Source: Pseudorhodoferax soli
GTDB taxonomy: Bacteria; Pseudomonadota; Gammaproteobacteria; Burkholderiales; Burkholderiaceae_C
Length of the DNA: 64,000 nt
Reading direction: 5' to 3'
NCBI RefSeq assembly: GCF_003337555.1
Contig: NZ_QPJK01000001.1
Span: forward strand, 310,001-374,000
Shown: piece by piece, positions 23,737 to 33,910 of the stretch
Layout of the letters: each line of letters opens with the position of its first letter
Position numbering within the stretch: the first letter of the stretch is position 1
Notes under the pieces: model-generated
What the model was told of the DNA's origin: nothing
The model's input: only the letters and a program-made list of their open reading frames with translations
Database searches by the model: none
Made by a program: the position numbers and the translations under genes

Positions 23737-26862
<3,126 letters not shown>

Positions 26863-28514: not shown

Positions 28515-29759
28515 TCATTGCGGCAACAGGCCCAGGGCCTGGCGCAGCGCGGAGATGGCCTGGTGCACGGCCACGCGGGCACGCGCGCTCTGGCGTTCGG
28601 CCTCGTAGGCCTCCAGCTCCACGCGCAGGCGGTTGGGCAGGTCGGTCTCGCCCAGGCGGAACGAGGTCTCGAAGAAGCCGCGCGTCTGCTGCGCCAGCGC
28701 CGTGCGCCGGGCGGCCGCCGTGGCCACGGCCTGGGCCGTGGCCAGGCGCGCGCGCGCCACGGCGGCATCGGCCGCGAGGCGCTGGGCCTGCAGCACGCGC
28801 AGCTGCTCGGCCTCGATGCGTTCCGCACTGGCCGTGGCCACCTTGGCACGGTGGCCCGAGGCCGAGCCCAGCGGCACGCGCAGGCCGACCGTCAGCGCGT
28901 GGGTGTTGGACTCGCCATAGGCGCCGCGCTCGCGTGTGACGAGCAGCGCCAGTTCGGGGTTGGCGCGCTTGCGCACGGCCGCCAATTCCTGCGCATGGGC
29001 GGCCAGGCGTGCGCGGTCGTCGAGTTCGACCAGTGCGGGATGGGTGGTGTCGGGCGCCGTGGCCTGCGGCAGCGGCTCGGCCAGCGCCACGCCGGCCGGC
29101 GGCTGCACGCCCAGCGCTGCGAGCGCCTGGCGCGCCTGCACCACGGCCAGCGCGGCTTCGGCCACCTCGGCCTCGGCTTGGGCGCGTGCACCGTCGGCCT
29201 GGTTCTGGTCGGCGCGCGCGAGGTCGCCGGAGGCCACGCGGCGCGCCACGTCGCGCGCCAGCTTGTCCGCGCTGTCTTCACGCGCAGCGGCGGCCTGCTG
29301 CTCCAGCAACGCCAGTTGCAGTGCCCACCAGGCCTCGCGCAGCTCACCGGCCAGGCGCCACTGCGCCGCGCGCAGCCGGCTCTCCAGCGCCAGCCCTTCG
29401 GCGCCTGCCTGGGCCTGCGTCAGCGCACGCTCGCGCGGCAGCCACAGCGGCACGGCCACCCCGGCCTCGATCTCGCGCGCGCCGTCGTTGCCGCTCAGCC
29501 GGTCGGACTTGAGCGCGGCTTCGAGCGCGGGCGGCTCGGGCGTCCAGCGGTCGGCCGCCACGCGCTGGGCCTGGCCGGCATCGCGCCGTGCGGCGGTGCC
29601 GGCCTGTTCGGGCTGCTGGGCCCAGGCCTGGGCGAAGGCCTCGGCCAGGCTGCTGGCGGGCGCGGGCGGCGTCTGGGCCAGCGACGGCAGGCTGGCCAAC
29701 GCCAGCACAGCGGCGCCCAGCCGGTGGGATGCCCGCCGGGGCGAAAACTTCCAATGCAT
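28515..29759 (-). CDS. czcC: Outer-membrane efflux channel, CzcC/TolC family
   Basis: A 414-residue outer-membrane factor with signal peptide ([12 protein letters not shown]-like: [12 protein letters not shown]). Long alpha-helical repeats rich in Ala/Gln/Glu are characteristic ([68 protein letters not shown]). Together with CzcB and CzcA it completes the trans-envelope pump. It follows czcI by 72 nt. Confidence 0.9.
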
Positions 29760-29831: not shown

Positions 29832-30176
29832 TCAGGCGAGGAAGCGGTGGGGTGGACGGATCAGCCGCTCGGGCAGTCCGTCGGTGATGCTGCGCTGGTA
29901 GGGCGTGGCGTGGCGCAGGTCCGGCAAGCCGGTCGGCAGCGCCGCGGGCCAGCCGAGCAACGCGGCGCACATGCCGCCGTGGCAGCCCACGCAATCGAGG
30001 TGCGGCACCTGCGGCCCGTTCTCGGCCTGGGCCGGCTCGTGCGCGTCCAGGTGCACGTGGTGGCCGAAGTGCGCCTCGGCCGTCGTCGGTTCGTGGCGGC
30101 AGACTTCCGCCGCCGCAGACCAGGTGGCCTGCAGCACGAGCACGAGCATCAGCACGACAGAGAGGAAACGGCGCAT
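29832..30176 (-). CDS. czcI: CzcI-family periplasmic metal-resistance protein
   Basis: 114 residues: signal peptide ([20 protein letters not shown]), then His/Cys-rich sequence with [22 protein letters not shown] and [16 protein letters not shown]. First gene of the operon and divergent from the response regulator, as in czcICBA operons of Cupriavidus. CzcI is thought to act in metal sensing or pump regulation; its exact role is unclear. The promoter carries the 18-bp palindrome at 30249-30266. Confidence 0.83.
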
Positions 30177-30210
30177 GGATGGAGGGTTGCTGCGTTGCAG
30201 CAGCGGCGCG

Positions 30211-30266
30211 AGTGTAGCGGCCGGACATGCAACCCGGATGGCGAAGTGGATGACAAATTTGTCATC
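30211..30266. promoter_or_regulatory. 18-bp palindromic box and -10 for czcI; shared with czcR
   Basis: GATGACAAATTTGTCATC at 30249-30266 is a perfect palindrome in the 123-bp gap between czcI and the regulator gene. On the minus strand a -10-like TACACT lies at 30216-30211, with no recognisable -35, as expected for an activator-dependent promoter. The half-site resembles CusR/CopR boxes of OmpR-type metal regulators. The same half-sites recur at 32284-32301. Confidence 0.75.
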
Positions 30267-30299
30267 GAAACAGCGCTTGCCGGCACCACACAATGCCCC

Positions 30300-30977
30300 A
30301 TGCAATTGCTGGTGATCGAAGACGAAACCAAGCTCGCGCAGTACCTGCAGAAGGGCCTGCGCGAGGAAGGTTTTGCGGTGGACGTGGCGCACGACGGCGT
30401 GACCGGCCTGGAGGCCGCGTTGCAGCACGCCTACGACCTCGTCGTGCTCGACGGCATGCTGCCGGGGCTGGACGGCTTCGCCGTGCTGGCCGCGCTGCGC
30501 CAGAGCCGCCAGACCCCCGTGCTCATGCTGACCGCGCGCGGCGAGGTCGAGGACCGCGTGCGCGGCCTGCGCAGCGGCGCCGACGACTACCTGGTCAAGC
30601 CCTTCGCCTTCTCCGAACTGGTGGCCCGCATCCAGGTGCTGCTGCGCCGCGCGAGCGCCACGCCGGCAGAGGCCACGGTGCTGCGCCTGGCCGACCTGGA
30701 GGTCGATCTGATCCGGCGCCGCGTGCTGCGCGCCGGCCAGCGCGTGGAGCTGACCAACAAGGAGTTCAACCTGCTCACGTTGCTGCTGCGCCGCCAGGGC
30801 GCGGTGCTGTCGCGCACCGAACTCGCGGCCCAGGTCTGGGGCATGAACTTCGACAGCGAGACCAACATCGTCGAGGTGGCCGTGCGCCGGTTGCGCGACA
30901 AGGTGGACCGGCCATTCGAGCGGCCGCTGCTGCACACGGTGCGCGGCATGGGCTACGTGCTCGAAGCCAGGGCATGA
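30300..30977 (+). CDS. czcR: OmpR-family metal-responsive response regulator (CzcR/CusR type)
   Basis: A 225-residue regulator. Receiver: [20 protein letters not shown], phospho-Asp51 (VVLDGMLPG), Thr in MLTAR and Lys in LVKPFAF. The C-terminal winged helix reads [17 protein letters not shown] and ends [12 protein letters not shown]. Nearest known subgroup is CusR/CopR/CzcR. It is divergent from czcI and its ATGA overlap couples it to the kinase. It probably binds the GATGAC-N6-GTCATC boxes on both sides of this module. Confidence 0.93.
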
Positions 30978-32320
30978 CGCAGCGCAGCCTGCGCGCGCGG
31001 CTGTCGCTGTGGCTGGCGCTGCAATCGCTGGCCGGGCTCGGCCTGGTCTGCGGCGCGCTGTACCTGGCATTGGACTGGACGCTGGCGCAGCGCCGCCACG
31101 AGACGCTCGCGCAGAAGGAAACCGCCGTGCGCGAACTGCTGGCCGAGGGCCGCGCCGACCACCGGCCCGAAGACCTGCCGCACCTGCTGGACGACATGCT
31201 GGCCGGCCATGGCGACCTGGCGCTGACGCTGACCGACGGCGCCGGCCGCACCGTGTTCAGCCGGCCCCTGCCGGCGGATGTGCGGGCCGCCGCGCACCGC
31301 TTCGCCGTGGCCGTGGAGGGCTGGCCCGCACCCGTGCAGGCCAGCCTGCAACTGGACCCGCGCGCCGACGCCGCGCTGCTGCGGCGCATGGCGGGGCTGC
31401 TGCTGCTGGCCGCGCTGGGCGGCACGGCCGTGATCTCGCTCGGCGGCTGGTGGCTGGTGCGCCTGGGCCTGGCGCCGCTGCGCGAGCTGGCGGCGCAGAC
31501 CGGCCAGCTCGACGCCGACACGCTGGCCCGTCGCCTGGACGGGCGCGCCCAGCCCGCCGAACTGCAGCCCTTGATCGCGCAGTTCAACGCGCTGCTGGAC
31601 CGCCTGGCCAGCGCTTACGCGCAGATGGAGGCCTTCAACGCCGACGTCGCACACGAACTCAACACGCCCCTGGCCACGCTGATCAGCGGCAGCGAACTGG
31701 CGCTGCGCCGCGCCCACAGCGCAACCGAGCTGCAGGAGGTGCTGGGCTCCAATCTTGAGGAACTCGACCGGCTCGCCCACATCGTGGCGGACATGCTGTT
31801 CCTCTCGCGCGCGCAGCGCGGCAGCAGCGCGCGGCGCACGCAGGTGGCCAGCCTCGCGGCGCTGGCGGCCGAGGTGGCCGAGTTCCACGAGGCCGCGCTG
31901 CAGCAGGCCGCGCTCGCGGTGCGCATCGAAGGCGATGCGGCCGCCGCGGTGGATGCGGGGCTGCTGCAGCGCGCGCTGTCCAACCTGCTGGGCAATGCCA
32001 CGCGGCATGCCACGCCGGGCAGCACGGTGCTGGTCGCCATCGCCCGCGCGGACGGCCGCACCCGCATCACGGTGGAGAACGCCGGCGCGGCCATCGCGCC
32101 CGAGCACCTGCCGCGGCTGTTCGACCGCTTCTTCCGCGCCGACCCCGCGCGCAGCCAGGCCGACCAGCACCATGGCCTGGGCCTGGCCATCGTGGCGGCG
32201 ATCGCCCGCATGCATGGTGGCGGCACGCTGGCCGAATCGGCCGCGGGACGCACCCGCATCGGCCTGTGGCTCGGCGATGCGCAGATGACGCAAACGTCAT
32301 CGAACGGTGCGGCTTCCTGA
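30974..32320 (+). CDS. czcS: Heavy-metal sensor histidine kinase (CzcS/CusS type)
   Basis: A 448-residue kinase. TM1 ([22 protein letters not shown]), a short periplasmic sensor of about 110 residues, TM2 ([20 protein letters not shown]), HAMP, HisKA with His227 in [13 protein letters not shown], and HATPase_c ([29 protein letters not shown]). ATG 30974 overlaps the regulator's stop. The periplasmic part is smaller than in CusS. Its last codons contain a second palindromic box (32284-32301), so the 3' end doubles as a promoter region. Confidence 0.92.
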
Positions 32321-32338
32321 GGTTTGGATTTCCAGAAT
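32284..32338 (+). promoter_or_regulatory. Second palindromic metal-regulator box, inside czcS 3' end, with -10
   Basis: GATGACGCAAACGTCATC (32284-32301): 7-bp arms, same GATGAC/GTCATC halves and same 18-bp length as the czcI box. A -10-like CAGAAT lies at 32333-32338. Box centre to -10 centre is 43 bp here and 44 bp at czcI. It would drive the small gene at 32387. Confidence 0.7.
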
Positions 32339-32386
32339 GCAAGGCACCGCGCAACACCGCGCGGACCATCCGACAAAGGAAACACC

Positions 32387-32749
32387 ATGCCTCGCCCCTC
32401 CGCCCTCCTGCTCTCCCTGGCCGCCGTGTTCGGCCTGGCCCAGCCCGCACTGGCGTCCGACGCCCCGCCCACGCGAGAGCAGGTGCGCGCCGCGGTGCTG
32501 CAGGCACAGGCCCGCGGCCAATGGCCGGCCGGCGGCGAAGCCGGCGTCTGGACAGCGCCCGCCACCGGCACGCCGTTGAGCCGCGCGCAGGTCCTGCGCG
32601 AACTGGCCGCCTCCGGCCCTGCGCCCTCCGGCGAAGTCGGAGACATCGGCCAGCTGGCGGCTGACCACCGCGACACCACGCGCGCCGAGGTGCGTGCGCA
32701 GGCCGTGCAGGCGCTGCGTGCGGGCGCGCTGCCGGGCGGCGAACTCTGA
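32387..32749 (+). CDS. Small secreted DUF4148-like protein in the czc regulon
   Basis: 120 residues: signal peptide (LLLSLAAVFGLAQPALAS), then two similar units, TREQVRAAVLQAQARGQWPA and LSRAQVLRELAASG, as in DUF4148 proteins of Burkholderiales. AAAGGA precedes ATG 32387. No His-rich motif. Function of the family is unknown. The upstream box (32284-32301) suggests metal-dependent induction with the efflux operon. Confidence 0.75.
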   Translation: MPRPSALLLSLAAVFGLAQPALASDAPPTREQVRAAVLQAQARGQWPAGGEAGVWTAPATGTPLSRAQVLRELAASGPAPSGEVGDIGQLAADHRDTTRAEVRAQAVQALRAGALPGGEL

Positions 32750-32767
32750 CAACGACCGTGCTGCGGC

Positions 32768-33910
32768 TCAGGGACCCGCAGCCGTCCGCTCCAGCGCCGC
32801 CCGGGCTGCGGCCCGGTGCAGGTCGGCATGCGCCAGATCGGCGATCGGCGCCAGCAGGCCCGCGTCGAACTCGCTCAGCGGCAGGCCCTGCGCGACACGC
32901 CGGGGCCAGTCCGGATGCGTCAGCGCGCCACGGCCCAGCGCCACGAAGTCCGCCTCGCCGCGCGCCAGCATGCCGGCCGCCCGCGCGGGGTCGTGCAGCC
33001 CGCCGTTGGCCAGCACGGGCAAGCCGGCGTAGCGCTTGGCCAAGGCGGCCAGGCTGGGGCCGATGCCGAAGGCCGGCTGCCATGCCATGTGCTCCGTGGT
33101 GTGCAGGTAGTCGAGGGGCAGCCGGCCCAGCAGCTCGAACAGCGCGCGCGCCTCGGCCTCGCCGCCCCGCCACTTGCAGGCGAAGTCATTGACCTTGGCC
33201 TGCGAGATGCGCAGGCCGACCACGAAGTCCGGACCGACGGCCGCGCGGACCGCCCACGCGACCTCGCAGATCAGGCGCAAACGGCCCGCCAGCGCGCCGC
33301 CATGGCCGTCCTCGCGCAGGTTGCTGCCTTCGGACAGGAACTGGTCGAGCAGATAGCCGTTGGCGCCATGGATCTCGACACCGTCGAAGCCCGCCTGCCG
33401 GGCACGCCGCGCCGACAGCGCAAAGCCCTGCACCGCATGATCGATCTCCTGCGGCGCCATGGCCGCGGGCAGCGGATACGCGCCGCTGCCGCGGTAGAAG
33501 GGCATCTGGCGGCCGACGGGCTGCACGGCCGAAGGCCCCACCGTGCCCACGCGGTGCGGGTTACCCTGCGACAGGGCGCCGGCGTGCATCAGCTGGGCCA
33601 GCATGCGCGCGCCCTGCGCCTGCACGCCGGCGATGATGCCGCGCCAGGCCTGCTGCTGCGCCTCGTTGGCCATGCCCGGCTGGAACAGGTAGCCCTGCGA
33701 GAAGTCCTCGTCCGTGTACAGCCCTTCGGTGATGACCAGCCCGAAGCCTCCTTCGGCGAAGCCGCGGTAGTAGTCCGCCATGTGCGGCGTGGGAAGGCCC
33801 TGGGCCGATGCGCTGACGCGCGTCATGGGCGCCACCGCGAGACGGTTGGCAAGCTGCAGGCGCCCGAGGGCGAGCGGCTCCGACAGGCGCTGGTGGGCGT
33901 GGTGTTCCAT
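32768..33910 (-). CDS. NADH:flavin oxidoreductase, old yellow enzyme family
   Basis: A 380-residue FMN enzyme of the OYE family: PLALGRLQLANRLAVAPMTR at the N-terminus, VEIHGANGYLLDQFLSEGSN with the substrate-binding His/Asn, NLREDGHGGALAGRLRL (NxRxDxYGG variant with His for Tyr) and VLANGGLHDP near the phosphate site. It reduces activated C=C bonds with NAD(P)H. ATG 33910 chosen; a GTG at 33916 overlapping the upstream stop is possible. Forms an operon with the RidA-like gene. Confidence 0.93.
   Translation of the reverse strand: MEHHAHQRLSEPLALGRLQLANRLAVAPMTRVSASAQGLPTPHMADYYRGFAEGGFGLVITEGLYTDEDFSQGYLFQPGMANEAQQQAWRGIIAGVQAQGARMLAQLMHAGALSQGNPHRVGTVGPSAVQPVGRQMPFYRGSGAYPLPAAMAPQEIDHAVQGFALSARRARQAGFDGVEIHGANGYLLDQFLSEGSNLREDGHGGALAGRLRLICEVAWAVRAAVGPDFVVGLRISQAKVNDFACKWRGGEAEARALFELLGRLPLDYLHTTEHMAWQPAFGIGPSLAALAKRYAGLPVLANGGLHDPARAAGMLARGEADFVALGRGALTHPDWPRRVAQGLPLSEFDAGLLAPIADLAHADLHRAAARAALERTAAGP

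Follow-up and report, generated by a model that had tools for sequence, protein, structure and literature searches.

The palindromic box and the type of regulator considered here are already known from the CusR, CopR and AgrR systems. The E. coli CusR box is quoted as TGAC/GTCA around 6 bp, and both this box and the CusR, CopR and CzcR sites of Pseudomonas are palindromes located between a heavy-metal regulator gene and a divergent operon (PMC11195947), an arrangement shared by the locus described below. In Cupriavidus metallidurans NA4, AgrR recognizes the box ATKACANNNNTGTMAT in promoters with a good -10 and a poor -35 element, its targets being prsQ2, czcI2, copA2 and czcL/czcR2, with prsQ2, which codes for a small predicted periplasmic protein called CopQ-like, among the best-bound (PMC7380067). 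According to the same source, the AgrR binding position has its centre at -43.5 in the agrR promoter itself and slightly further upstream in most others, and AgrR is reported to use in-phase direct repeats and is active when unphosphorylated. In C. metallidurans most cop transcription starts are also reported to have a motif some 50 bp ahead of them (PMC7563307), and the Cupriavidus proteins CopQ, CzcJ and MmmQ are described as metal-induced, with a signal sequence and repeats, several of them being encoded beside metal efflux genes (PMC2864759).

The DUF4148 family has been met near such regulators before. The B. pseudomallei genes BPSS1996 and BPSS1038 code for DUF4148 proteins and lie directly downstream of irlR2S2 and irlRS, respectively; the linkage to two-component systems was regarded in 2020 as possibly coincidental, and one member of the family was tied to virulence in Burkholderia pseudomallei (PMC7549894). 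No operator in front of either gene was found in the available text of that work. In Achromobacter a DUF4148 operon was among those most induced by arsenite and antimonite (PMC11719878). The operator is therefore of a known kind, and a DUF4148 target was found neither in the available accounts of CusR, CopR and CzcR sites (PMC11195947, PMC13209446) nor, as a CzcR-type operator before a DUF4148 gene, elsewhere in the literature searched, from which most subscription journals are missing.

The window, i.e. the whole 64-kb stretch of DNA that was analysed (C1:310001-374000), comes from an 8.16-Mb genome in 30 contigs and contains a czc-type cluster with the following features.

23737..26862, minus strand: CusA/CzcA-family heavy-metal RND pump (TIGR00914, 776.8 bits, cut-off 701.45)
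28515..29759, minus strand: czcC-like TolC-family outer membrane gene, start picked by eye (TIGR01844, 20.8 bits, cut-off 225.15)
29832..30176, minus strand: czcI-like gene for a small secreted protein, heading the divergent efflux operon (NF045614, 52.9 bits, cut-off 100)
30211..30216, minus strand: -10-like TACACT of the putative czcI promoter, 44 bp (44.0) from the box 1 centre
30249..30266, no strand: box 1, perfect 18-bp palindrome GATGACAAATTTGTCATC between the divergent czcI and czcR, predicted CzcR/CusR/AgrR-type operator
30289..30294, plus strand: -10-like CACAAT on the czcR side, 5 bp ahead of the ATG and at a distance of 34 bp from the centre of box 1
30300..30977, plus strand: czcR-type heavy-metal response regulator (TIGR01387, 313.9 bits, cut-off 279.2; Response_reg, Trans_reg_C)
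30974..32320, plus strand: czcS-type heavy-metal sensor kinase (TIGR01386, 376.6 bits, cut-off 292.55)
32284..32301, no strand: box 2, GATGACGCAAACGTCATC, in the final czcS codons, predicted operator of the DUF4148 promoter
32333..32338, plus strand: -10-like CAGAAT of the putative DUF4148 promoter, 43 bp (43.0) from the box 2 centre
32387..32749, plus strand: small secreted DUF4148 protein, 120 aa (PF13663, 48.4 bits, cut-off 27)

The minus-strand operon runs from the czcI-like gene through the TolC-type gene and further genes to the CusA/CzcA-family pump. The regulator and the linked kinase both pass the cut-offs of their NCBIfam heavy-metal subfamilies, and the small gene that follows czcS after a gap of 66 bp, which had been called DUF4148-like from the letters alone, scores well above the Pfam cut-off. 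The naming of czcI is less secure: NF045614 is its best match, at a score below the cut-off of that profile.

The two matched 18-bp palindromes announced by the sequence-only reading, one between czcI and the regulator and the other inside the last codons of the kinase, lie exactly there, and the recomputed distances to the box centres, 44 bp for TACACT and 43 bp for CAGAAT, agree with its claim, as does the lack of a -35. Boxes 1 and 2 are the only exact matches to GATGACN6GTCATC in the window, in 100 dinucleotide shuffles of which none occurred, and sites with up to two mismatches number six, compared to 1.66 expected. Box 2 has perfect 7-bp arms flanking CAAA. The whole genome holds three exact sites, namely box 1, box 2 and C11:110514, and 45 sites with at most one mismatch; the reversed pattern gave two exact genome sites, a weak control because it contains CTA/TAG, which is rare in GC-rich coding DNA. 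No -35 element was seen in either box promoter, the hexamers at the expected place being ATCCGG and CGGCTT, and no promoter-like pair emerged from a sigma-70 scan. As a -10, CAGAAT is weaker than the TAnnnT present in most relatives.

Compared by eye with the AgrR consensus, box 1 is an exact match and box 2 is one base off per half (ATGACG vs ATGACA). The locus resembles the AgrR system in its heavy-metal response regulator, the poor -35 and the combination of a small secreted-protein target with czc genes; it differs in that the AgrR target PrsQ2 is CopQ-like and CopQ has RDPFTDG-type repeats, whereas the predicted target here has the DUF4148 repeat. Likewise, CopQ, CzcJ and MmmQ share with the window protein a signal sequence, repeats and efflux neighbours, the repeat motif being different. 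The C. metallidurans cop motif at about 50 bp is near the position of about -53 expected for the window boxes (PMC7563307), the P. aeruginosa CzcR motif GAAAC-N6-GTAAT differs from them (PMC13209446), and BPSS1996 and BPSS1038 follow IrlRS-type systems just as the DUF4148 gene follows czcRS in the window.

The same genome carries on contig C11 a second cluster (L007) with the same order, czcC-czcI-box-czcR-czcS-box-DUF4148, and diverged boxes. Its czcR is 84% and its czcS 66-67% identical to the window genes; the TolC-type and czcI-like genes were recognized by eye. There are two boxes upstream of czcR, GATTACTTTTTTGTCATA and GATGACAAAAATATCATC, the former with TACACT at 44 bp on the czcI side (locus L264), while the box at the end of the kinase gene, CCTGACGAAAACGTCATT, overlaps the stop codon of czcS, with GACACT 43 bp away on the DUF4148 side. 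Two DUF4148 paralogues on C11 also have a box, namely TATGACAAATTCGTCATC with GATAGT at 43 bp (L006:16302) and GGTAACAAAAACGTCATC with GAAACT at 43 bp (C11:142183, L112). Altogether a box precedes 4 of the 13 DUF4148 genes of this genome, the remaining nine scoring at most 2.4 bits with the trained box matrix. These nine, distributed over C1, C2, C4, C6, C11 and C12, are alike, most having GEVGYVP after the signal peptide (by eye), and are presumably under other control.

When relatives were searched for the kinase, 81 of the 200 genomes sampled from the window's family gave a match. The loci examined numbered 71, including 70 fetched from among the matches listed and L007; three had no regulator/kinase pair in reach, leaving 68. 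The commonest DUF4148 layout is a gene divergent from czcR within 400 bp (34/68); in six loci DUF4148 follows czcS on its own strand, again within 400 bp, in five it is nearby in another layout and in 23 it was not found nearby. The six same-strand loci are the window, its C11 paralogue L007, L010, L011, L012 and L013 (including genomes G175, G075, G190 and G180) and represent three genera (g1, g75 and g88); all six small genes pass the Pfam DUF4148 cut-off. Loss of box 2 from relatives keeping this gene order was looked for, and the box was retained in all six loci together with a -10-like hexamer at 43-44 bp. In G175, the closest relative, the second box half reads GTCACC, and the pair that G175 forms with the window adds little alone because the two czcS genes are 92% identical. 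Across the six, the box is offset from the czcS stop by -57 to -4 and precedes the DUF4148 start by 94-121 bp; since the offset to the stop varies while the -10 stays at 43-44 bp, box 2 looks like part of a DUF4148 promoter and not like a relic of czcS coding sequence.

On the other side of the pair, a fixed mismatch rule detected a box in the 260 bp upstream of czcR in 54 of the 67 testable loci (13 had none), and a matrix trained on those boxes did so within 200 bp in 63 of 67, a partly circular count. In the 63 box-bearing loci the divergent TAnnnT lies at 43 bp in six and at 44 bp in 41 (47/63), with only four other matches closer than 90 bp. Towards czcR, nAnAAT was counted 32 times at 32-34 bp over the 63 loci, mostly 5-8 bp from the ATG, which suggests that the czcR transcript may be leaderless and autoregulated.

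Beyond the family, the order-level sample gave a kinase match in 22 of 200 genomes, four of them from the window's own family, and a strict core box was found within 250 bp upstream of the regulator in 11 of these 22 loci, own and other families taken together. From other families only L247 combines a divergent DUF4148 gene with a box and TACATT at 43 bp, and L245 has a doubtful DUF4148 match (E 0.067). The exact 18-mer by itself is not specific, occurring in 115 of the 200 family genomes, many times with a GC-rich centre (by eye); out of six further stretches, mostly fetched around exact 18-mers, a DUF4148 match was found in one only (L197, beside czcRS). In L194 the exact box 2 sequence (G078:C16:29418-29435) follows another sensor kinase gene and has TACAGT at 44 bp; no DUF4148 gene was found within its 8-kb stretch.

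DUF4148 is present in 137 of the 200 sampled genomes of the family. Tests were made on 133 distinct upstream regions, part of the matches listed, of DUF4148 genes that had been called in the loci with a purpose-built HMM. An untrained rule (core TKACN6GTMA with its centre 60-200 bp upstream of the gene) found a box before 37 of 55 DUF4148 genes having a czcR- or czcS-like gene in the locus (0.22 in shuffles), and a core allowing one mismatch, combined with TAnnnT at 43 or 44 bp, preceded 40 of the 55 (0.14 in shuffles). Where the fetched stretch contained neither regulator nor kinase, the untrained core box preceded only 3 of 78 genes (0.27 in shuffles), among which some linked genes may hide because many were seen only in about 1.3 kb. 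The trained matrix reached 10 bits in 55 of the 133 regions vs 1.1 expected, a count that is partly circular because the matrix was built from the czcR-upstream boxes of the same loci. The proposal of a czc regulon including the DUF4148 gene thus gains from the six same-strand loci and from the 37 of 55 linked promoters, as far as comparison of sequences can tell. The wider expectation that the boxes give this protein family a context for its function holds for a subset, mostly encoded beside such two-component systems; it does not extend to the nine box-less genes of this genome. Membership of DUF4148 as a whole in the regulon was ruled out, the box being absent from 75 of the 78 genes whose fetched stretch contained neither of the two partners.

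In 53 box-bearing DUF4148 promoters, whose sequences are related so that they are not independent events, TAnnnT occurs at 43 bp in eight and at 44 bp in 31 (39/53), with three counts elsewhere between 20 and 75 bp; the window's CAGAAT belongs to the 14 that are not TAnnnT. With the same peak in the czcR-divergent promoters of relatives, the geometry suggested earlier, that of a CusR/CzcR-type promoter, is borne out. A further 44 named loci are close relatives of a histidine-type DUF4148 (Ideonella, Comamonas, Hydrogenophaga, Piscinibacter, Xenophilus, Ottowia, Caldimonas and others), a set that is not fully independent, as some of its genera are probably represented among the family genomes too; a box of at least 10 bits was found in 40 of them and TAnnnT exactly at 44 bp in 43. 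In five (L239-L243) DUF4148 lacks a divergent czcR, and the 44-bp promoter is nevertheless present in four of the five. The DUF4148 gene of Comamonas testosteroni ATCC 11996, which is preceded by a box and TACACT at 44 bp, is flanked by an RND pump gene and an eptA-like gene (by eye). When 33 promoters chosen for a 44-bp TAnnnT were aligned, they were found to share the palindrome, GtC 11 bp past the second half-site, GTcGGG 11 bp further and TTtCTACAGT. The 11-bp half-site repeats suggest that a second regulator dimer may sit between the box and the polymerase.

To our knowledge, DUF4148 is described as a domain with no known biochemical activity. The window protein carries the [TS]RxQV...ARxxG repeat of the family. 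The motif H[PW]xH within the first 75 residues occurs in 20 of 57 box-bearing vs 3 of 76 other DUF4148 proteins, a difference for which the Fisher value is overstated because the sequences are related, and is absent from the window protein. AlphaFold models of two DUF4148 proteins had mean pLDDT values of 63.3 and 64.6, with short helices of low confidence only. A search of annotated plasmids with the window protein and the C11 paralogue gave no matches, and a histidine-type relative used as query retrieved five records, all annotated DUF4148. Identity of CopQ with DUF4148 was considered and rejected: the CopQ translation has RDPFTDG-type repeats and no DUF4148 repeat, and RDxxTDG, the motif of the CopQ/PrsQ family (PMC2864759), has no match in the window protein.

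The observed sites, geometry, conservation and linkage are most readily explained if the CzcR-type regulator encoded between the two palindromes, or a close paralogue of it, uses both as operators, so that the pump and the DUF4148 protein would be co-activated; we regard this as highly probable, and comparative evidence supports the regulon well. As to binding, activation, metal and protein role, we infer the following sequence. Periplasmic metal, probably Zn, Cd or Co judging from the pump family, would activate the sensor kinase, which would in turn activate the CzcR-type regulator. Bound as a dimer to box 1 and box 2, the regulator would bring RNA polymerase to promoters lacking a -35, with the -10 placed 43-44 bp from the box centre. 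Binding at box 1 would turn on czcI with the efflux operon, and probably czcR itself via the closer -10; binding at box 2 would turn on the DUF4148 gene, which could also be reached by read-through from czcRS across the 66-bp gap. The DUF4148 protein would be made together with the pump and exported to the periplasm or the cell surface, where it probably buffers or hands on metal, or shields the envelope. The layout of the shared switch suggests that this secreted protein helps in metal handling, and a metal-buffering or envelope-protecting role is consistent with the predicted regulation and with the histidine motif in part of the family.

More tentatively, with the balance close and tipped slightly against it, the two-component-linked branch of DUF4148, many members of which have [WY]HPAxxExGxTxHPDH just past the signal peptide, may be a dedicated periplasmic metal-handling protein of Comamonas-type Burkholderiales and their relatives. 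It would be activated by a CzcR-type regulator from a composite promoter (palindrome, 11-bp half-sites and TACAGT at 44 bp) and would fill the slot held in Cupriavidus by the unrelated CopQ/PrsQ proteins.

Even with genuine boxes, the main activator of the DUF4148 gene could be a paralogous heavy-metal regulator, either the C11 copy or one of the CopR type, instead of the adjacent CzcR, in which case the signal could be copper or mixed metals. The genome does hold a second czcRS cluster, C. metallidurans CopR and CzcR, roughly 60% identical, are said to be possibly able to elicit cross-regulation (PMC7563307), and the acting regulator may differ because CusR, CopR and CzcR of Pseudomonas bind one and the same palindrome (PMC11195947). 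However, in every one of the six loci that have this gene order box 2 stands beside czcRS, a point in favour of the cognate pair, and we lean against a paralogue as the main activator while considering it quite possible.

Box 2 lies within coding sequence and the DUF4148 gene follows czcS closely, so that the box might be a coincidence of czcS codons and DUF4148 simply the third gene of a czcRS operon. This is improbable, given the shifting offset to the czcS stop at constant distances to the -10 and a narrow range to the DUF4148 start, the exact box never arising in the shuffled windows, and the same type of promoter preceding DUF4148 genes that are divergent from czcR. Finally, box 2 could by eye form a 7-bp stem with a 4-base loop, but palindromes acting as RNA hairpins or terminators are scarcely credible here: a scan of positions 30100-32800 gave no terminator-like site (a G+C-rich stem followed by a T-run), and the palindrome is found upstream of divergent genes at a fixed distance from the -10.

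With operators of the CzcR-type regulator or its paralogue as the preferred reading, the conserved box and the exact spacing make the linkage between DUF4148 and two-component systems look systematic in the window's family, and the promoter data point to which DUF4148 branch, which cells and which signal to test. The box and its spacing can also serve as a promoter signature when metal-regulon genes without a known function are sought in these bacteria.

A few other sites were seen in the course of the analysis. The box at C1:1303378 was set aside, as it adjoins a MerR-like gene (by eye). The third exact palindrome of the genome (L006:4015-4032, C11:110514) is located between a small secreted gene, L006:4220, which has no Pfam match, and a divergent gene for a His-rich zinc-ribbon protein (by eye); on the side of the former the nearest hexamer is GATATT at 53 bp, and on the zinc-ribbon side TAGACT lies at 43 bp. 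L038 also has a His-rich zinc-ribbon gene of similar type, there divergent from czcR. Boxes were also observed upstream of eptA-like phosphoethanolamine transferase genes at L007:15222-15239, with AAGAAT at 43 bp and a gene matching Pfam EptA_B_N, and at L242:3845-3862, with TAGGAT at 44 bp, and lipid A modification may be part of the regulon.
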